Part shown: positions 11,078 through 20,190 of the stretch, piece after piece
Layout of the letters: the number at the start of each line of letters is the position of its first letter
Numbering within the stretch: position 1 is the first letter of the stretch
Source: Radicibacter daui
GTDB taxonomy: Bacteria > Pseudomonadota > Alphaproteobacteria > Radicibacterales > Radicibacteraceae
Assembly: GCA_030657355.1 (NCBI GenBank)
Contig: CP131056.1
Location: 3,988,501-4,052,500, forward strand
DNA: 64,000 bases
Direction: 5' to 3'
Translations under genes and position numbers: made by a program
The notes under the pieces: generated by a model
What the model saw: only the letters and a program-made list of their open reading frames with translations
What the model was told of the DNA's origin: nothing
The model's database searches: none

Positions 11078-11218
11078 GGCCTGTTATCGCCCCCACGCGG
11101 GCGCACGCGAATTTTTTCAAAATTCCTGCGCCTGCCGGAGGCATGATTATCCGTGTAAAGCCCATGGATGCCGGCGGAGCTTTACGCCATTGCCGGCCTT
11201 GATAGCCGGGGCAACACG

Positions 11219-11995
11219 ATGACGACTCTCAAGATCGGTTTGCTGGACACGTTCCTTGCCAAAATCGGGAGCCTTTCCGGGCCGATCGACGAGCGCATCA
11301 ACAACTTCCTCATCTGCGGCTATGCCCGCGTCGTGCACGGCTCGCGCGAATACAACCCGCGCAATTATGACCCGATGTGGCGCGAGGCGACCGACGTGCT
11401 CTCCCGGCACGGGGTGTCGTACTTCCGCACCCTTGATGAGATGCTGGATATCGTGCGCGACGGTCTCAAGACCGGCGAAGGCGATTTTCTGGGCGAAGCG
11501 CTGTGTGCGCTTGGCGGCGCCAGCCCGCATCCCGGCTCCCGGCTGCAATATGTGACGCCTTACGAGGTGGCCGCGATGATGGCGCGCATCAGTATGGAAG
11601 GCGCGCAGAGCCTGGTGAGCGAAAAAGGCTTTCTCACCTGCCTCGATAGCGATGCCGGTTCGGGCAGCGGCCTTATCGCCTGCGCGCGCTATCTGAAAGC
11701 CGAATGCATCGACCCAACCCGCCATTTCTTTGTGGAGGCGGAGGCCGACAGCCTCACTTCCTTCCGCATGGCCTATATCCAGTTGGGTCTGATGGGCCTG
11801 CCGGCCATCGTCTCGCATATCGACCGCAAGACCGGCCGTGCCCGGGGCCGCGCCACCCCGGCGATGATGCCCTTTTCGCGTCAGGCCGGCGCCGCCTTTA
11901 CCAGCTGGCTGAACCAGTCGAACCGCCGCTGCGACACGCGCCGCGGCCAGCCCTGGCCCTCGACCATCGCCTGGCCCGAACAGACCACGGGTTAA
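11219..11995 (+). CDS. N6-adenine DNA methyltransferase-fold protein lacking an obvious catalytic motif IV
   Basis: This 258-aa protein resembles the N6-Mtase (type I M-subunit-like) fold. The segments are GEGDFLGEALCALG, YVTPYEVAAMMARISM (equivalent to the FTP-x-xVA-xLM segment), and LDSDAGSGSGLIACARYLK, a degenerate motif I where DPACGSG is usual. HFFVEAEADSLTSFRMAYIQLGLMGLPAIVSH matches the acidic-loop strand and following helix. No NPPY/NPPF motif IV appears in the remaining ~65 residues, which are Arg-rich and end with PWPSTIAWPEQTTG. Similar N-6 DNA-methylase-domain proteins that also seem to lack motif IV occur on phages and plasmids, as I recall. A longer in-frame ATG exists at 11168 without a ribosome-binding site. 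There is no restriction subunit nearby. It may bind SAM or DNA without methylating. Confidence 0.65.
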   Translation: MTTLKIGLLDTFLAKIGSLSGPIDERINNFLICGYARVVHGSREYNPRNYDPMWREATDVLSRHGVSYFRTLDEMLDIVRDGLKTGEGDFLGEALCALGGASPHPGSRLQYVTPYEVAAMMARISMEGAQSLVSEKGFLTCLDSDAGSGSGLIACARYLKAECIDPTRHFFVEAEADSLTSFRMAYIQLGLMGLPAIVSHIDRKTGRARGRATPAMMPFSRQAGAAFTSWLNQSNRRCDTRRGQPWPSTIAWPEQTTG

Positions 11996-12063: not shown

Positions 12064-13218
12064 CTAGAGCTTGCCTTCCAGCGCGGCGGTAAAGATGGCC
12101 TTGCAGCCGTCAACGGTGAGCGGCACGGGATTGCCGCCGGCGGTCGGGTCCACCACCGCCATCTCGGCAATCAGATCGATCTGCGCGCCATCCACCTTGA
12201 GACCGGCGAGCGTTGCCGGAATGGCCAGCTCCTCGCGCAGGGCCAGCACCCAGTCGAGGAATGCCGGGAAGTTTGCAGCCTTGAGGCCTAGCCAGGCGGC
12301 AAGGCGGCCGATCTTCTCCTCAATCGCGGCGCGGTTATGCACCAGCACATAGGGCATGAAGACGGCGTTGGTGAGCCCGTGGTGGGTATCGTAAAGCGCG
12401 CCCACCGGATGGGAGAGCGAATGAATACCGCCAAGGCCCTTCTGGAAGGCCGCGGCGCCCATCGAGGCTGCTGCCAGCATTGCCCCGCGCGCCTCGATAT
12501 CCTTGCCGTTCCTGACCGCGCGCGGCAGGTATTCCTTCACAAGGCGGATACCTTCCACCGCGATACCTTCCGCCATCGGGTGGAAACCCGGGGCGCAGTA
12601 GGCTTCAAGGCAGTGGGCGAGTGCATCCATGCCGGTCCACGCCGTCAGGCTTGCCGGCAGACCCACGGACAGCTCGGGATCGCTGATCACCACCGCCGGC
12701 ATCATCTTCGGATGGAAGATGACCTTCTTGGTGTGCGTGGCTTCCTGGGTGATGACGCCGGCACGGCCGACTTCGGACCCCGTACCGGCCGTGGTCGGCA
12801 CCGCGACGATCGGCAGGATGCCGGCCGGGTCGGCGCGGGTCCACCAGTCGCCGATATCCTCAAAGTCCCACATCGGGCGGGTCTGCCCGGCCATGAAGGC
12901 GATGACCTTGCCCACATCAAGCGCGGAGCCGCCGCCAAAGGCGATGACACCGTCATGATTGCCGGCCTTCAGCGCCTTGAGGCCGTCATACACATTGCTC
13001 TCGACCGGGTTGCCCTTGAGGGCGGAGAAGACGGCGATGCCAAGGCCTGCCGACTTGCAGGCCTCCACCGCCGCCGCGATCATCGGCAGGCCGGCAAGGC
13101 CGGGGTCCGTCACCAGCAGCGGGCGCGACATGCCCGCCACCTTGCAGGCCTCCGCCAGTTCGGCAATACGGCCGGCACCGAAGCGCACCGGGGTGGGGTA
13201 GTTCCAGTTGGCTTTCAT
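12064..13218 (-). CDS. Iron-containing (group III) alcohol dehydrogenase
   Basis: This 384-aa NAD(P)-dependent alcohol dehydrogenase of the FucO/YqhD-like fold has the cofactor loop FGGGSALDVGKV (about residues 94-105). Predicted iron ligands are Asp198 and His202 (GMDALAH), His266 (GGIHSLSH) and His280 (DTHHG), all present. It is the last gene of the five-gene amino-alcohol operon, 33 nt after the aldehyde dehydrogenase. In the pathway proposed here it would oxidise the terminal hydroxyl of a gamma-glutamylated amino alcohol to the aldehyde, which the neighbouring dehydrogenase then oxidises further. The substrate is an inference from context; the enzyme family is firm. Confidence 0.92.
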   Translation of the reverse strand: MKANWNYPTPVRFGAGRIAELAEACKVAGMSRPLLVTDPGLAGLPMIAAAVEACKSAGLGIAVFSALKGNPVESNVYDGLKALKAGNHDGVIAFGGGSALDVGKVIAFMAGQTRPMWDFEDIGDWWTRADPAGILPIVAVPTTAGTGSEVGRAGVITQEATHTKKVIFHPKMMPAVVISDPELSVGLPASLTAWTGMDALAHCLEAYCAPGFHPMAEGIAVEGIRLVKEYLPRAVRNGKDIEARGAMLAAASMGAAAFQKGLGGIHSLSHPVGALYDTHHGLTNAVFMPYVLVHNRAAIEEKIGRLAAWLGLKAANFPAFLDWVLALREELAIPATLAGLKVDGAQIDLIAEMAVVDPTAGGNPVPLTVDGCKAIFTAALEGKL

Positions 13219-13251: not shown

Positions 13252-14643
13252 TCAGAGTGTGTGGCGCAAATGGAAGGATTTGGGACGCGTGAGCGTCTCG
13301 TACCCCACTTTCGACAGTGTAGCCCCGCGCCCGGTGTGCTTGACGCCGGTCCAGGCCAGTGACGGGTCGAGATAGTCGGCGCGGTTCATAAAGACGGTGC
13401 CGGTGGCAATCGCATCGCCGATGCGCTCGGCCGCTTCCAGATCGGCAGTCCAGACCGAGGCGGTGAGCCCGTAGGGGCTGTCATTCATGAGACGAACCGC
13501 CTCATCCTCGCCCTTCACCTTCATGATGCCGACGACGGGACCGAAGCTTTCTTCCATCATCACCGACATGGAGTGATCCACGCCGGTCAGCACCTGCGGC
13601 GCCATATAGGCACTGCCCGCCATATTGCCGGAGAAGGCGCCGGCATCGATATGGGCCGTTGCCCCGGCCGCCACCGCCGCGGCCACCTGAGCGCGCACGA
13701 ACTCGGCCGCCGCCGGGCGCACCATGGGCCCGAGTGTCGTTTCCGCATCGAGCGGGCTGCCCAGCACATACTGGCGCGTCAGGTCGATGAAGCCTTCCAC
13801 GAACGCATCATAGACGGCGGCATCCACATAGATGCGTTCAATGCCGCAGCAGGACTGGCCGGAATTGAAGAAGGCGCCATCGACAAGATTTTCCACCGCA
13901 TGCGCCAGGTTCACATCGGCGCGCACATAGGCCGGGTCCTTGCCGCCCAGCTCAAGGCCAAGGCCGGTAAAGGTGCCGGCGGCCGCCTGCTCCATCGCCT
14001 GCCCGCCTGCCACCGAGCCGGTGAAATTCACCTGGTTGACCATGCCGCCGGCGATGATCGCGGCAGACTGCTCGTGGCTGAGATAGAGATGCTGGAAGAG
14101 CCCTTCCGGCAGCCCGGCCTTGTCGAATGCCTTCTGGAAACGTTCGGCGACCAGCAGCGTCTGCGCCGCATGTTTCAGCAGCACGGCATTGCCGGCCATC
14201 AGCGCCGGGATGATGGAATTGACGGCGGTGAGATAGGGATAGTTCCACGGCGCAACAACGAAGACGAGGCCCAGCGGCTCCCGCTTGATGTAGCGCCTGA
14301 AGCCCTCCTTGGGGCCGGGATCGACAGGGGCCAGCGCCTCTTCGGCGAGCGCGATCATGTAGCGCGCGCGCTCCTCGAAACCACGCAGCTCTCCCGCGCC
14401 ATAACGCACCGGACGGCCCATCTGCCAGGCCAGCTCCGGCACGATTTCGTCCTTCATCGCCAGCATGGCGTCGACGGCGGCAAGGCAATAGCGGGCGCGA
14501 ACAGCGAGCGGCTGCTTTTTCCATTCCGCCTGTGCGGCGCGCGCCTTCTTCAGCGCGGCATCAACAGCCGGGGCCCCGGCAACGGGACGCTCGGCATAGA
14601 CCGACCCGTCCACCGGGGAAATGCACCTGATCGTGGATGACAT
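13252..14643 (-). CDS. NAD(P)-dependent aldehyde dehydrogenase
   Basis: This 463-aa member of the aldehyde dehydrogenase superfamily has the catalytic residues in place: Asn134 (APWNYP), Glu231 (LELGGKDPAYV) and nucleophile Cys265 (FFNSGQSCCG). The C-terminal EESFGPVVGIMKV and NDSPYGLTASVWT segments are typical. A GAGG ribosome-binding site overlaps the stop of the upstream ligase gene and the gap is only 9 nt, so translation is coupled. The proposed role is oxidation of a gamma-glutamylated aminoaldehyde to the acid, as PuuC does in the putrescine pathway. Because it is flanked by the ligase and the alcohol dehydrogenase, this is a better guess than a succinate-semialdehyde role. Confidence 0.92.
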   Translation of the reverse strand: MSSTIRCISPVDGSVYAERPVAGAPAVDAALKKARAAQAEWKKQPLAVRARYCLAAVDAMLAMKDEIVPELAWQMGRPVRYGAGELRGFEERARYMIALAEEALAPVDPGPKEGFRRYIKREPLGLVFVVAPWNYPYLTAVNSIIPALMAGNAVLLKHAAQTLLVAERFQKAFDKAGLPEGLFQHLYLSHEQSAAIIAGGMVNQVNFTGSVAGGQAMEQAAAGTFTGLGLELGGKDPAYVRADVNLAHAVENLVDGAFFNSGQSCCGIERIYVDAAVYDAFVEGFIDLTRQYVLGSPLDAETTLGPMVRPAAAEFVRAQVAAAVAAGATAHIDAGAFSGNMAGSAYMAPQVLTGVDHSMSVMMEESFGPVVGIMKVKGEDEAVRLMNDSPYGLTASVWTADLEAAERIGDAIATGTVFMNRADYLDPSLAWTGVKHTGRGATLSKVGYETLTRPKSFHLRHTL

Positions 14644-14652
14644 CTTGGTTCC

Positions 14653-16023
14653 TCAATAACGCTCGAAGCCGCGGGTCATTTCCCAGTCGGTCACGCGGCG
14701 ATCATACTCGAGCTGTTCCCAGTCCGCGGTATGGACATAGTGGTCCACCACGCTGTCGCCAAAGGCCGCACGCAGCATTTTGGACTTGTCCATGAGCGTG
14801 GCCGCCTCCCGCAGGGTTTTGGGGATCTCGCGCAGCTTCTTGCCGCCATAGGCATCGCCGCTATAGCCCGGCTCCAGCGCCATCTTGTTCTCGATGCCGG
14901 AGATGCCGGCCGCCAGCATGGCGGCAAAGGCAAGGTAGGGGTTGAGATCGGCGCCGCCCATGCGGCATTCCACCCGCACGCTCTTGCTGTGCTCGCCACA
15001 CAGGCGGAAGCCGGCGGTGCGGTTGTCGTTGCTCCAGATCGCCTTGGTCGGCGCAAAGGTGCCGGCCTGGAAACGCTTGTAGGAGTTGATGTAGGGCGCA
15101 AGGAAATAGGTGATCTCGCGCGCATGGGCGAGCAGGCCGGCCATATAGTGCCGCATCAGCTCCGACATGCCGAGTTCGCCCGCCTTGTCGGCAAAAAGCG
15201 GCGTCTTGCCGGTCTTGTCCCACAGGCTCTGGTGCACATGGCAAGAGCTGCCGGCATAGGTGTAATCCCACTTGGCCATGAAGGTGACGGCCTTGCCCTG
15301 CAGGAAGGCTATTTCCTTGATGGCATTCTTGGTGATCACGTGCCGGTCGGCCATTTCCAGCGCGTCGGCATAACGGATGTTGATCTCTTCCTGCCCCGGC
15401 CCCCACTCGCCCTTAGAGTTCTCGACCGGGATGCCCGCCGCTTCCAGCCCGTTGCGCACCGCGCGCATCAGCGGCTCGTCCTTGGTGGTCTGGAAGATGT
15501 GGTAGTCCTGCATGTAATAGGCAGACGTCTTGAGGTCGCGGTAACCCTTGGTGTGCGCGCCCTCGAAACTGTCGTCGAAGAGGTAGAATTCAAGTTCGGA
15601 CGCCATGTAGGCGCTCATGCCCATCGCCTCCAGGCGGGCCAGCTGCTTTTTCAGCATGCCGCGCGGCGAATAGGCGACGTCCTCATGGGTGTGATGGTCC
15701 AGCACATCGCACAGCACCAGCGCCGTTCCTTCCAGCCACGGCACCAGCCTGAGCGTGGAGATGACCGGCTTCATGATGAAGTCGCCATAACCCTTGGCCC
15801 AGTTGGCGCCCTTGTAACCGGGCACCGGCTCCATATCGATGTCGTTGGCCAGCAGATAGTCGCAGGCATGGGTTTCGTCATGCGCACTGTCGAGGAAGAA
15901 ACTCGCCTGAAACCGCTTGCCGATAAGCCGGCCCTGCATGTCGATGATGCAGGCCAGAACCGTATCGATGCGGCCGGCCTCAACCTCGCGGCGAAGCGCT
16001 TCAAGCGTCAGATTACCCGGCAT
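14653..16023 (-). CDS. Glutamine-synthetase-family ligase, probable gamma-glutamyl-amine synthetase
   Basis: This 456-aa protein has the glutamine synthetase fold: an N-terminal beta-grasp domain, metal-binding ELEFYLFDD, the paired glutamates in GPGQEEINI, the catalytic-domain histidine in SCHVHQSLWD, the phosphate-binding loop region FAPTKAIWSNDNRTAGFR and the C-terminal VECRMGGADLNPYLAFAAMLAAG. It lacks the adenylylation-site tail of GlnA-I and sits in a catabolic operon, like PuuA and the gamma-glutamylethanolamide synthetase GlnA4 of Streptomyces. It is therefore likely to use an amine instead of ammonia, forming a gamma-glutamyl amide with ATP. The gap to the upstream permease gene is 147 nt. 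The substrate (ethanolamine or another amino alcohol) is inferred from the permease and alcohol dehydrogenase. Confidence 0.88.
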   Translation of the reverse strand: MPGNLTLEALRREVEAGRIDTVLACIIDMQGRLIGKRFQASFFLDSAHDETHACDYLLANDIDMEPVPGYKGANWAKGYGDFIMKPVISTLRLVPWLEGTALVLCDVLDHHTHEDVAYSPRGMLKKQLARLEAMGMSAYMASELEFYLFDDSFEGAHTKGYRDLKTSAYYMQDYHIFQTTKDEPLMRAVRNGLEAAGIPVENSKGEWGPGQEEINIRYADALEMADRHVITKNAIKEIAFLQGKAVTFMAKWDYTYAGSSCHVHQSLWDKTGKTPLFADKAGELGMSELMRHYMAGLLAHAREITYFLAPYINSYKRFQAGTFAPTKAIWSNDNRTAGFRLCGEHSKSVRVECRMGGADLNPYLAFAAMLAAGISGIENKMALEPGYSGDAYGGKKLREIPKTLREAATLMDKSKMLRAAFGDSVVDHYVHTADWEQLEYDRRVTDWEMTRGFERY

Positions 16024-16170: not shown

Positions 16171-17661
16171 TTATTCGGCGTTGGCGGTGCCTCTGTGTTC
16201 CATCGCGAACTCTTCTTCCGGCGACAGGATCATCCGGTGGCGGGCATAGACGGCGAAGTAGATCAGTCCGGCGACGAACCAGATCGCACAGCCATAAACG
16301 CCGGGACGATAGTCGGCATTGAGGAAGAGGAAGACCAGCGAGACGGCAGCGATGATCGCTGCCACTGCGGCCCCGGCCTTGCCGAGTGGCGAGACATAGG
16401 GACGCTCGAGCGACTTCATGTCCTTGATGATGATGTAGGAGACCATCTGCATGACATAGGCGATGACGGCACCGAACACCGCCATGTTGAGCAACACCGG
16501 ACCGACCGGCACATCGCCGAAGATGGCAGAGCCATATTCAAGGATGAGACAGACGATAAGCCCCAGCGCGCTCCCCACCAGAAGCGCCACATGCGGCGTC
16601 TTGCGGGTGCCATGAGTGATCGAGAGCCAATGCGGGAAATAACCTGCGCGGCTCAGCGAGTAGATGTTGCGGCCATAGGCATAGATGATGGTGTGGAAGG
16701 AGGCGACGAGCCCCGCCACCGCCACCAGCGCCAGAGCCGCCGAGCCCGCGCCCACACCGAAGATGGTCTGGAAAGCAAGGAACAGCGGGTTGAGGTCCGT
16801 CCCCACCTTCGAGGCGCCGGGCTCGATGCCGGCGTTGAAAATGAGGGTCAGGAACGCGGCGACGATGAGGGTGATAATGCCCCACACCAGGCCGCGCGGC
16901 ATGTCCTTCTTGGGGTCATGGCTTTCTTCGGCAGCGAGCGGAAGCTGCTCGATGGCGAGGAAAAACCAGATCGCAAAGGGTAGCGAAGCTGCGACGCCGC
17001 CCCAGCCAAACGGCAGGAACGGGCCATTGCCGTCCGGCAGTTCGGCTCCGTCGGCCCCGATATTGAGCGCCCAGCGGTGATAGTCGAAATGCGGGATGGC
17101 GCCGATCCAGAACACCACCAGGATGGCGAGCGCCAGGAAGGTGATGACGATGGTGAACTTGAAGGTGACTTCAACGCCGATGATGTTGAGGCCGACGAAG
17201 ACGCCGTAGAAAATCAGCCACCACACCGGGTTGGGCAGATGAAAGCCCAGAGCGGTGGTGGTGATGCTGTCCATGTAGCCGGCAATACCGACGACGATGA
17301 CGGCCGGCGTCAGCACATATTCCATGTTCTCGGCGAGGCCGGTGATGAAGCCGCCCCACGGGCCCATGGCCGTACGGCCGAAGGAATAGGCACCGCCGGT
17401 GTGCGGTAGGGCCGGGCTCATTTCGGCGATGGAGTAGGCAAGGCCCACATACATCACCGCGATGATGACGGTGGCAATCGCAAGACCGCCGAAGCCGCCC
17501 GTTGCCAGGCCGAAGTTCCAGCCGAAGAAGTCGCCGGAGATAACGGCTCCCACGCCCAGCGCCCACAGCGACCAGGCGCCGGCAAATTTCTTGAGGCCGC
17601 GCTGTTCGAAATAGGCGCTGTCGGCCTTGGTATAGGTTACGCCCCCTTCATGTTTTGCCAT
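16171..17661 (-). CDS. eat: APC-superfamily permease, ethanolamine-permease (Eat) type
   Basis: This 496-aa amino acid-polyamine-organocation transporter has about 12 membrane helices. Key segments are WALGVGAVISGDFFGWNFGL (first helix), YSIAEMSPALPHTGGAYSFGRTAMGPWGGFITG, the LAAEESHDPKKDMPRGL loop, SFHTIIYAYGRNIYSLSRAGYFP and the C-terminal MILSPEEEFAMEHRG. These match what I know as the ethanolamine permease family. The ATG at 17661 follows GAGGGG at suitable spacing; a longer in-frame extension overlaps the hydrolase gene and lacks membrane character. It is second in the operon, 46 nt after the hydrolase. The exact substrate (ethanolamine versus another small amino alcohol or amine) needs an assay. 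Confidence 0.85.
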   Translation of the reverse strand: MAKHEGGVTYTKADSAYFEQRGLKKFAGAWSLWALGVGAVISGDFFGWNFGLATGGFGGLAIATVIIAVMYVGLAYSIAEMSPALPHTGGAYSFGRTAMGPWGGFITGLAENMEYVLTPAVIVVGIAGYMDSITTTALGFHLPNPVWWLIFYGVFVGLNIIGVEVTFKFTIVITFLALAILVVFWIGAIPHFDYHRWALNIGADGAELPDGNGPFLPFGWGGVAASLPFAIWFFLAIEQLPLAAEESHDPKKDMPRGLVWGIITLIVAAFLTLIFNAGIEPGASKVGTDLNPLFLAFQTIFGVGAGSAALALVAVAGLVASFHTIIYAYGRNIYSLSRAGYFPHWLSITHGTRKTPHVALLVGSALGLIVCLILEYGSAIFGDVPVGPVLLNMAVFGAVIAYVMQMVSYIIIKDMKSLERPYVSPLGKAGAAVAAIIAAVSLVFLFLNADYRPGVYGCAIWFVAGLIYFAVYARHRMILSPEEEFAMEHRGTANAE

Positions 17662-17707: not shown

Positions 17708-18514
17708 TCATCCGGTGGCGACGTTCCGGCCTTGCCGCCCTTCCTGCCCGAAAGAGAGAAGCAGGTTGGCAAGGCGTTCTGCCCAGGCACGCTGGCGTTC
17801 TTCAGTGCGCACTTCGTCATTGCGGATTTCGATCATTACGCTCGGCAATCCGCTTGCCTGGACATGGCGGTCCAGCGTCCAGTAGACGCCGTCCCAGGGG
17901 CCATAGGGCTGGTTTTCGCCCACTGTCAGACCGCTTTCGCGGCCAAGGCCCGATATCAGGTGATCGCCAACCTTCCGGTCGCGATCGAAAAGAATGCCGA
18001 TCTGCCAGGGGCGGCTCTCGCCCTTGAAGACCGGGGTGAAGGTATGGACGGCAACGCCGATGACGCCCTGCCCGCCCCGCGCCGCCATCACCGCCGCGCA
18101 GGCGGCATGAAAGGGCGCATGCACGGCCTTGAGCCGGCGCTCGCGCTCTGCCGCATCCATGCCGGCATTGCCCGGGATGGGGCCGAACTCGCTGACCTCG
18201 GGAATGAGGGTCGGCGATGTCTCCGACCGGTTGACGTCCAGCACCAGACGCGAGACCGCGCCGGCAACCAGCGGGGCGTCCAGGAGTTTGGAGAGATGAA
18301 GCGCAACCGGCAGTGCCCCCGGATCCCAGGCGATATGTTCTGCCCTCAGCTCTGCCGACAGTCCGAGATCGCCATAGGCGGCCGGAATGAAATTGGAGGC
18401 ATGATCGCAAAACAGCACGAAGGGCCCGCGCCCTTCGGGATTGACCACCTTCACCGCATCGGCATGCGCTTCATGAGCCGCGTCGGCATCAGGAAACGCC
18501 TTGGTACCGGTCAT
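17708..18514 (-). CDS. N-formylglutamate-amidohydrolase-family zinc hydrolase
   Basis: This 268-aa protein of the FGase/HutG-like family has metal-site residues in FCDHASNFIP. It also carries SRLVLDVNR, the GVAVHTFTPVF strand with its histidine, the GENQPYGPWDGVYWTLDRH loop, and MIEIRNDEV at the end. The family cleaves N-acyl or aspartyl/glutamyl amides such as N-formylglutamate. It is the first gene of the amino-alcohol operon. Because no histidine-degradation genes are near, its probable job here is to split the gamma-glutamyl product and regenerate glutamate, replacing PuuD. That role is inferred. The ATG at 18514 is chosen; an earlier in-frame ATG at 18691 would cover the promoter region and add a non-conserved N-terminus. 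Confidence 0.82.
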   Translation of the reverse strand: MTGTKAFPDADAAHEAHADAVKVVNPEGRGPFVLFCDHASNFIPAAYGDLGLSAELRAEHIAWDPGALPVALHLSKLLDAPLVAGAVSRLVLDVNRSETSPTLIPEVSEFGPIPGNAGMDAAERERRLKAVHAPFHAACAAVMAARGGQGVIGVAVHTFTPVFKGESRPWQIGILFDRDRKVGDHLISGLGRESGLTVGENQPYGPWDGVYWTLDRHVQASGLPSVMIEIRNDEVRTEERQRAWAERLANLLLSFGQEGRQGRNVATG

Positions 18515-18601
18515 GCAATCACCCGGAAAAAGGGGCGAAACCTGAGCAATTCGCGATGTATCGATTTTTTCAGGATGCGCCGTAGGGTAAATTTCGTAAA
18601 A

Positions 18602-18630
18602 ATCATTCACTACGGAATCATGACTGTCAA
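18602..18630 (-). promoter_or_regulatory. Predicted sigma-70 promoter of the amino-alcohol operon
   Basis: On the minus strand TTGACA (18625-18630) is followed after 17 nt by AATGAT (18602-18607). The consensus -35 and ideal spacing fit a housekeeping promoter giving a leader of about 80 nt before the hydrolase ATG. It lies in the divergent gap with the RpiR regulator gene, so the regulator probably acts here. Confidence 0.5.
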
Positions 18631-18678
18631 TTCCATAAGGCCACCAACGATGTGGCCATAGAGGGAGAGCCCCCATCG

Positions 18679-19578
18679 ATGAGCGCCCCACCCCGGCAGG
18701 ACGACAGCCGTTCCCTTGCGCAGCAGCTGACGCAGATTCTGACAGAGATAACCCCGGCGGAACGCCGCGCCGCGCACATGCTCCTGGCCAACTACCCCGT
18801 GCTGGGGCTGGAGACGGTGGCCGAGTTTGCCCGCCGCACTCACGTCAGCGCCCCTACCATCCTGCGCCTTGTCGCCAAGCTTGGCCTTTCCGGTTACCCG
18901 GAATTCCAGCGCTGCCTGCGCACCGAGCTGGAAGCGCAGGCCCAGTCCCCGCTCTCCAAGGAACGTTTCAGCCCTTCCGGCGAAACCCCGCCCGACCAGG
19001 GCACCGGCCTTGCCAGCCGCCTGCAGCGCTTCCAGGAGACCGTCGCCGCCAACATCGCCGAGACCTTCCGCAACATCCCGGCTGCCGAGTTCGAGGCGGT
19101 GGTGGGGTTGCTGGCGGATGAAAAGCGCCGCATCTACCTGATCGGCGGGCGATTTACCGATGGCATAGGGCGTTATATGAGCGCCCATCTGCGCATCGTG
19201 CGCCCCGGCGTCACCCATCTCATCGGCCAGGCCGACAACTGGCGCGACCATCTGCTCGACATGGGCAGCCGCGACGTGCTGATCGTCTTCGACATCCGGC
19301 GCTATTCGGACGATCTGAGCCTGCTGGCCGCAGAGGCTGCCAAACGCCGTGTCACCGTTGTGCTGATGACGGACCAGTGGCTGTCGCCGGTCGCCGGCTC
19401 CGCCCGCCATGTGCTGGCCGCGCGCGTGCTGGTGCCCTCCAACTGGGATTCCACCGCCGCCATCCTCACCCTCGTGGAAGCGCTGCTGGCCGCTACGACG
19501 GAAAAAATCTGGCCGAGCGCCAGCCGCCGCATTGCCGCGCTGGAAGAAATGCGAAATCGCGCGGCCGGGCCTGACTGA
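18679..19578 (+). CDS. MurR/RpiR family transcriptional regulator
   Basis: This 299-aa regulator has an N-terminal helix-turn-helix domain (ITPAERRAAHMLLANYPVLGLETVAEFARRTHVSAPTILRLVAKLGLSGYPEFQRCLR) and a C-terminal SIS domain that normally senses a phosphosugar or other small effector (IYLIGGRFTDGIGRYMSAHL; DVLIVFDIRRYSDDL). The ATG at 18679 follows GGGAGAG; an in-frame GTG nine codons earlier lacks a site. It is transcribed divergently from the five-gene operon and directly upstream of the isochorismatase-like gene, so it is the obvious candidate regulator of both. Confidence 0.9.
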   Translation: MSAPPRQDDSRSLAQQLTQILTEITPAERRAAHMLLANYPVLGLETVAEFARRTHVSAPTILRLVAKLGLSGYPEFQRCLRTELEAQAQSPLSKERFSPSGETPPDQGTGLASRLQRFQETVAANIAETFRNIPAAEFEAVVGLLADEKRRIYLIGGRFTDGIGRYMSAHLRIVRPGVTHLIGQADNWRDHLLDMGSRDVLIVFDIRRYSDDLSLLAAEAAKRRVTVVLMTDQWLSPVAGSARHVLAARVLVPSNWDSTAAILTLVEALLAATTEKIWPSASRRIAALEEMRNRAAGPD

Positions 19579-19650: not shown

Positions 19651-20190
19651 ATGACGAGCGCACTTCTCATCATCGACATGCAGATGCTCATGCAGCACCG
19701 CCTCGACAGCGGGCGCGAGCATGTGAACCCGCAAACGCCGGAAAATATCGCGGCGCTTGCCGCCGCCTTCCGAGCCGCCGGCAAGCCGGTGCTCCATGTG
19801 CGCCACCGCGACACGGACGTAGCTTCCCCGACGCATCCGGATGCCGCCGGTTACCCGCCCATGCCGTGCGCGGAGGCGCTGGAGGGCGAACCCGTCTTCA
19901 TCAAGAACACCTCTTCCGGTTTTGCCTCGACGGATCTGGAAGGCTGGCTGCGCAAGGCCGGCATCACCCGGCTCCACGTCACCGGCGCCGTTGCCGGTTT
20001 CTGCGTTAACACCACCGTGCGCGCAGGCTCGGACCTCGGCTTCAAAATGAGCGTGGTGCGCGATGCGGTACTGGGCTTCGATCTGCCGGGCACCGGGCTT
20101 TCCGCTCAGGTGATCTTCGACGTGACCATGGCCCATCTGGCTTCGGACTTTGCCGAGATGACCGATACCGCCACCCTGCTGACGGCCTGA
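19651..20190 (+). CDS. Isochorismatase-family cysteine hydrolase
   Basis: This 179-aa hydrolase has the full catalytic triad of the family: Asp9 (IIDMQ), Lys85 (VFIKNTSSGF) and Cys118 (VTGAVAGFCVNTT), including the conserved cis-peptide region before the cysteine. Members hydrolyse amides, ureides or isochorismate; small amidases acting on N-carbamoyl or nicotinamide-like substrates are common. It lies 72 nt after the RpiR regulator on the same strand, which suggests co-transcription and a possible link to the neighbouring amine-use operon, for example as an alternative amidase. The substrate is unknown. Confidence 0.87.
   Translation: MTSALLIIDMQMLMQHRLDSGREHVNPQTPENIAALAAAFRAAGKPVLHVRHRDTDVASPTHPDAAGYPPMPCAEALEGEPVFIKNTSSGFASTDLEGWLRKAGITRLHVTGAVAGFCVNTTVRAGSDLGFKMSVVRDAVLGFDLPGTGLSAQVIFDVTMAHLASDFAEMTDTATLLTA

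Follow-up and report, generated by a model that had tools for sequence, protein, structure and literature searches.

A PF05013-family hydrolase gene heads a probable ethanolamine gamma-glutamylation operon in Radicibacter daui

Genes of the locus

The window, a 64,000-nucleotide stretch of contig CP131056.1 of Radicibacter daui, contains a run of five genes on the minus strand and a divergently transcribed regulator gene. The features are:

12064–13218, minus strand: iron-containing alcohol dehydrogenase (ADH; PF00465 and PF25137), proposed gamma-glutamylethanolamide dehydrogenase
13252–14643, minus strand: aldehyde dehydrogenase (ALDH; PF00171, 395.8 bits), proposed maker of gamma-glutamylglycine
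14653–16023, minus strand: glutamine-synthetase-like (GS-like) ligase (PF00120, 348.6 bits), proposed ethanolamine gamma-glutamylase
16171–17661, minus strand: amino acid/ethanolamine permease, Eat type (TIGR00908, 374.6 bits)
17708–18514, minus strand: FGase-family (PF05013) zinc amidohydrolase, most likely a gamma-glutamylglycine amidohydrolase (PF05013 match, tree clade, conserved residues, AlphaFold model)
18515–18651, no strand assigned: divergent promoter region of 137 bases between the FGase and RpiR starts, common to both genes
18652–19578, plus strand: RpiR-family regulator (PF01418 and PF01380), divergent, probable operon repressor

The initial annotation had named the gene at 17708–18514 as the first of an operon and as a member of the N-formylglutamate amidohydrolase (FGase) family, and both points hold. 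It is an intact open reading frame of 268 amino acids with its stop codon at 17708–17710, and its product matches PF05013 with 132.8 bits (E-value 2.7e-38, cut-off 28.9). The start codon is uncertain: the alignment of homologues begins at about residue 18, and residues 1–17 are of low confidence in the structural model. The genes for the Eat-like permease, the GS-like ligase, ALDH and ADH follow in this order on the same strand.

The permease aligns over its full length (residues 20–484) with the ethanolamine permease model TIGR00908. Its score lies 7 bits below the curated cut-off of 381.75, and the next-best family reaches 134 bits, 240 below the ethanolamine model. Judged by curated models, the ligase is no canonical glutamine synthetase; its scores are far under the respective cut-offs for GlnA (254.6 against 429.15), type III (234.6 against 469.6) and GGputSyn (199.6 against 650). 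Its best solved relatives are 11ZS (693 bits) and 5DM3 (597 bits), the next one scoring 176. For ADH the closest curated model is 4-hydroxybutyrate dehydrogenase. A Pfam scan of the operon proteins and their neighbours found no glutamine-amidotransferase-like domain (PuuD/PauD-type hydrolase, class I amidotransferase). These data support the view that the reactions of the operon require an enzyme to hydrolyse a gamma-glutamyl amide, and that locally only FGase can provide it.

Two further plus-strand genes flank this region. An isochorismatase-like cysteine hydrolase is encoded immediately behind RpiR (19651–20190), and a frame of 259 amino acids without a Pfam or NCBIfam match (11216–11995) is convergent with and downstream of the ADH gene.

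Fold, conserved residues and relation to HutG

The AlphaFold model of the window FGase has a mean pLDDT of 90.3. Its best structural match is PDB entry 2ODF (Z 34.5, 1.7 Å for 247 residues), followed by the formylglutamate amidohydrolase 2Q7S (Z 22.5). Gamma-polyglutamate hydrolases (Z ~13), muramoyl-alanine amidases and carboxypeptidases are found further down. Entry 2Q7S is named N-formylglutamate amidohydrolase, yet in the alignment it has the motif NDPYKG where HutG has GRFKGG, and it may therefore be something other than a HutG.

Residues H38, D64, R89, D93, N95, R96, H157 and E229 are conserved in the window protein, and the alignment shows H38, R89, D93, N95, R96, H157 and E229 in all PF05013 groups. 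By analogy with R127, N144, R145 and E270 of carboxypeptidase A (PMC6506827), the conserved residues would serve as metal ligands, as oxyanion and carboxylate binders and as general base. Those common to the whole family could form a clamp for the carboxylate of an amino acid beside the scissile amide, here that of glycine. The HutG-invariant residues R203, F204, K205 and G211 are replaced by P, Y, G and Y in the window protein. The first three are invariant in HutG alone, and their replacement would fit the loss of a pocket for the glutamate side chain.

The initial annotation had reasoned that an enzyme recognising a glutamyl moiety could pass from one substrate to the other. This does not follow, since glutamate is the leaving amine in N-formylglutamate and the acyl donor in gamma-glutamylglycine. 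The element common to both substrates is acyl-NH-CHR-COO-, and the family would therefore have to enlarge its acyl pocket and shrink its amino acid pocket rather than reuse a glutamyl site.

A tree of 75 FGases, calculated on a set outside which MED193_10026 and SCO1615 lie, resolved three separated groups. All 12 of the 12 urocanase-linked rows form one HutG clade (support 98/97) without the window protein. A widespread long form comprises 10 rows (100/98), including the second FGase of the R. daui genome. The third group, set apart from HutG on a very long branch, holds the window protein. Within this group a clade of 29 rows (100/99) comprises the window protein and all sampled members of ethanolamine-type operons. 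The same clade takes in the pRi FGase beside eutBC, Atu2144 (2ODF), Paracoccus L222 and Ruegeria L223. The operon-linked members thus form a clade apart from HutG, which was the phylogenetic check that the initial annotation had proposed.

The NCBI HutG model TIGR02017 (cut-off 278.75) gave no match to the window protein at an E-value of 0.001; three urocanase-linked control proteins scored 336–366 bits. None of the three PF05013 proteins of the genome passes this model. The initial annotation had noted no hut genes in the window. None was found among the genes examined at ~6–26.5 kb, and the urocanase and histidine-ammonia-lyase-family genes of the genome (C1 351–358 kb, 1063–1072 kb, 3771 kb and 4204 kb) all lie outside the window (3988–4052 kb). 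The two urocanase loci of the genome are C1:358299 and C1:1063466 (L220, L221).

Model, tree and gene context together lead us to reject HutG identity. It is extremely improbable that a true N-formylglutamate deformylase came to lie in this operon by chance, considering the failed TIGR02017 match, the separate clade with its very long branch, the exchange of R203, F204, K205 and G211, and the linkage to GS, ALDH and ADH genes instead of hut genes. These outweigh the identical Pfam family, the catalytic residues common to hut-linked proteins and the circumstance that no other PF05013 gene of the genome passes the HutG model. The prediction of a gamma-glutamyl hydrolase at the end of a pathway, and not a HutG, is well supported by the tree, the TIGR02017 result and the gene set common to the 80 nearest relatives (see below).

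Gene neighbourhoods of related hydrolases

Genes for GS, ALDH and ADH adjoin FGase in 80 of the 80 nearest FGase relatives (the best 80 from named bacterial genomes), a set that was picked by FGase similarity, is mostly Mesorhizobium and has FGase identities of only 47–56%. Nearly all of those with complete flanks also have a divergent RpiR gene. Among 241 genomes sampled evenly across the class, a close GS relative was present in 33, and FGase adjoined GS in 7 (8 if an operon that is probably divided between two contigs is included). Several genomes of this sample have GS–ALDH–ADH without a neighbouring FGase. Two small genomes, G030 (L197) and G132 (L189), contain GS–ALDH–ADH and no PF05013 gene anywhere, so that another enzyme can do the hydrolase step; inspection of open reading frames recognised no replacement hydrolase beside GS where FGase is not adjacent. 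Set against the linkage in the best 80, the even sample and these two genomes show that, in one lineage of these operons, FGase as a rule accompanies GS–ALDH–ADH without being obligatory. The GS–ALDH–ADH cluster of G030 includes a class-III aminotransferase gene.

A TRAP transporter takes the place of the permease, with the other genes unchanged, in Paracoccus denitrificans, Ruegeria and loci L190–L196. GS, ALDH and ADH keep ~56–73% identity to those of the window across permease-type and EtoVWX-like TRAP-type operons. Four rows of the 29-row clade (L116, L132, L214, L267) have no nearby GS gene. RpiR adjoins FGase in all four, and TRAP genes do so as well in L132 and L267. The genomes of L116, L132 and L267 encode a 60–64% identical ADH elsewhere, near a divergent GS-like gene.

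One could also imagine that FGase is a moonlighting or unrelated amidohydrolase (of the formamide type or for N-formyl amino acid repair) and that another cellular peptidase cuts gamma-Glu-Gly. G030 and G132, which do without PF05013, the many GS–ALDH–ADH cassettes without an adjacent FGase and the clade member beside eutBC and an amidase on pRi2659 would suit this explanation. It is very unlikely in view of the strict linkage among close relatives, the published co-induction with the pathway (PMC10132767) and those FGase–TRAP operons that have no GS gene, since the 60–64% identical ADH then exists near a different GS-like gene elsewhere in the genome.

Further observations concern single relatives. 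In Rhizobium rhizogenes pRi2659 (L225, 6962–10159) the clade FGase lies between an amidase/ABC transporter block and the ethanolamine ammonia-lyase genes eutBC. In Aminobacter pMET3 (L224, 11837–14726) the genes bhcR-bhcA-bhcB, which belong to the beta-hydroxyaspartate cycle, come after the operon; this fits glycine/glyoxylate as product. The palindrome GTAA-N6-TTAC occurs in the RpiR–FGase intergenic region of 8 of 90 relatives (e.g. L036, L042, L078, L105, L107) and twice elsewhere in 1.42 Mb; the strict form is absent from the window. It is likely an RpiR operator that is degenerate or absent in the other relatives and in the window, and we do not count it among the evidence.

Pairing with GS-like genes extends beyond the ethanolamine operon type. 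Seven rows outside this type lie within 6 kb of a GS-like gene (two of the seven stem from a plasmid search and not from an even sample), compared with 0 of 13 HutG and 0 of 20 long-form rows. The conjugative Klebsiella pneumoniae plasmid pKSB1_9A_1 (L226) encodes FGase together with RpiR, an isochorismatase, a GS-like ligase, an APC permease and a class-III aminotransferase, and the FGase is present in 45 Klebsiella plasmid records. This cluster is a putative operon for the gamma-glutamylation of an amine. On this plasmid and in NT-25 (L227) the isochorismatase gene directly follows FGase beside the GS-like gene; the pairing, seen also near RpiR in the window, may be more than chance.

We tentatively suggest, with the balance tipping slightly against it, that the wider clade consists of general gamma-glutamyl-amide hydrolases, which on Klebsiella plasmids, rhizobial plasmids and elsewhere repeatedly acquired different GS-like partner ligases serving different amines. 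Many genes called N-formylglutamate amidohydrolase would then never meet N-formylglutamate. This very common annotation is probably wrong for all of the clade to which the solved structure 2ODF belongs.

The same chemistry could also serve another amine in R. daui, namely aminopropanol (via gamma-Glu-beta-Ala) or another amino alcohol. The permease scores slightly under the ethanolamine cut-off, ADH is nearest to a 4-hydroxybutyrate dehydrogenase model and sister FGases lie next to other GS-like genes in operons of a different build. We nevertheless consider a different amine unlikely: the permease fits the ethanolamine model 240 bits better than the next family, and an EtoVWX-like TRAP transporter fills its slot in relatives whose GS, ALDH and ADH are still ~56–73% identical.

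Proposed pathway and comparison with known systems

Based on these results, we propose that the operon very probably encodes a gamma-glutamylation route for ethanolamine in which FGase splits gamma-glutamylglycine. The permease would import ethanolamine, and the GS-like ligase would couple it with glutamate, yielding gamma-glutamylethanolamide. The iron-containing ADH would convert the alcohol of this compound to the aldehyde, which ALDH would oxidise to gamma-glutamylglycine. In the last step the FGase-family zinc hydrolase would release glycine and glutamate, the latter being recycled. Gamma-Glu-Gly is the likeliest substrate because the permease is of the ethanolamine type. The hydrolase would act as a metal enzyme of carboxypeptidase fold, with the metal held by two histidines and one acidic residue. 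Glu229 would be the general base, and Arg89, Asn95 and Arg96 would bind the carbonyl of the substrate and the carboxylate of its glycine. FGase genes of this clade would then mark the use of ethanolamine, a phospholipid headgroup, as nitrogen source.

The initial annotation had regarded gamma-glutamyl cleavage as a new activity for the family. It is not new to PF05013, and the pathway is known: PF05013 proteins encoded in the same operon have carried this assignment since 2019 or earlier (PMC6529630, PMC9397018 Table 2, PMC10132767). What the present work adds is a test of the assignment and a correction of its chemical rationale; with the pathway already in the literature, we claim no discovery. 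A role as gamma-glutamylglycine amidohydrolase (GGAH) was proposed for Streptomyces coelicolor and Chromohalobacter salexigens (PMC6529630, PMC9397018), and Table 2 of the review lists PF05013 for the gamma-glutamylglycine step in both (PMC9397018). The study on Phaeobacter sp. MED193 cites Vetting et al. 2015 for its statement that the function of the homologous genes was demonstrated in C. salexigens and A. tumefaciens (PMC10132767); in the earlier paper on S. coelicolor, the C. salexigens pathway is described as an in silico prediction (PMC6529630).

The MED193 operon reads RpiR-GGAH-EtoVWX-ETAGA-GAADDH-GETADH. Its proteins, including GGAH, rise on phosphorylethanolamine, and the TRAP binding protein binds ethanolamine with a Kd of ~8 µM (PMC10132767). 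RpiR, the FGase-family hydrolase, the GS-like ligase, ALDH and the iron-containing ADH are in the same order as in the window, and only the transporter differs (TRAP in MED193, an Eat-type permease in the window). Table 2 of the review, together with the agreement in gene layout, leads us to treat GGAH of MED193 as a PF05013 protein. The FGase–TRAP relatives described above share this published organisation, which supports the ethanolamine route.

In S. coelicolor, GlnA4 was shown to be a gamma-glutamylethanolamide synthetase, and SCO1615, of the formylglutamate amidohydrolase family, is a predicted gamma-glutamylglycine amidohydrolase (PMC6529630). The cluster SCO1611–SCO1615 resembles that of the window in its GS-like GlnA4, ADH, ALDH and formylglutamate amidohydrolase family gene; it differs in belonging to another phylum, in its regulator EpuRI and in having no permease.

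Among solved proteins, Atu2144 of Agrobacterium tumefaciens (PDB entry 2ODF, solved as a hypothetical protein) is in the clade of the window FGase (100/99) and is 45% identical to it. HutG (TIGR02017) shares the Pfam family and H38, R89, D93, N95, R96, H157 and E229 with the window FGase but differs in its clade, its conserved pocket residues and its hut operon context. The phage and Bacillus gamma-polyglutamate hydrolases PghP and YndL/PghL likewise cut gamma-glutamyl amides with a carboxypeptidase-like fold (Z ~13 to the model), but they are distant in sequence and act on a polymer. PghL is without the Arg and Asn-Arg residues of carboxypeptidase A (PMC6506827), whereas PF05013 retains them.
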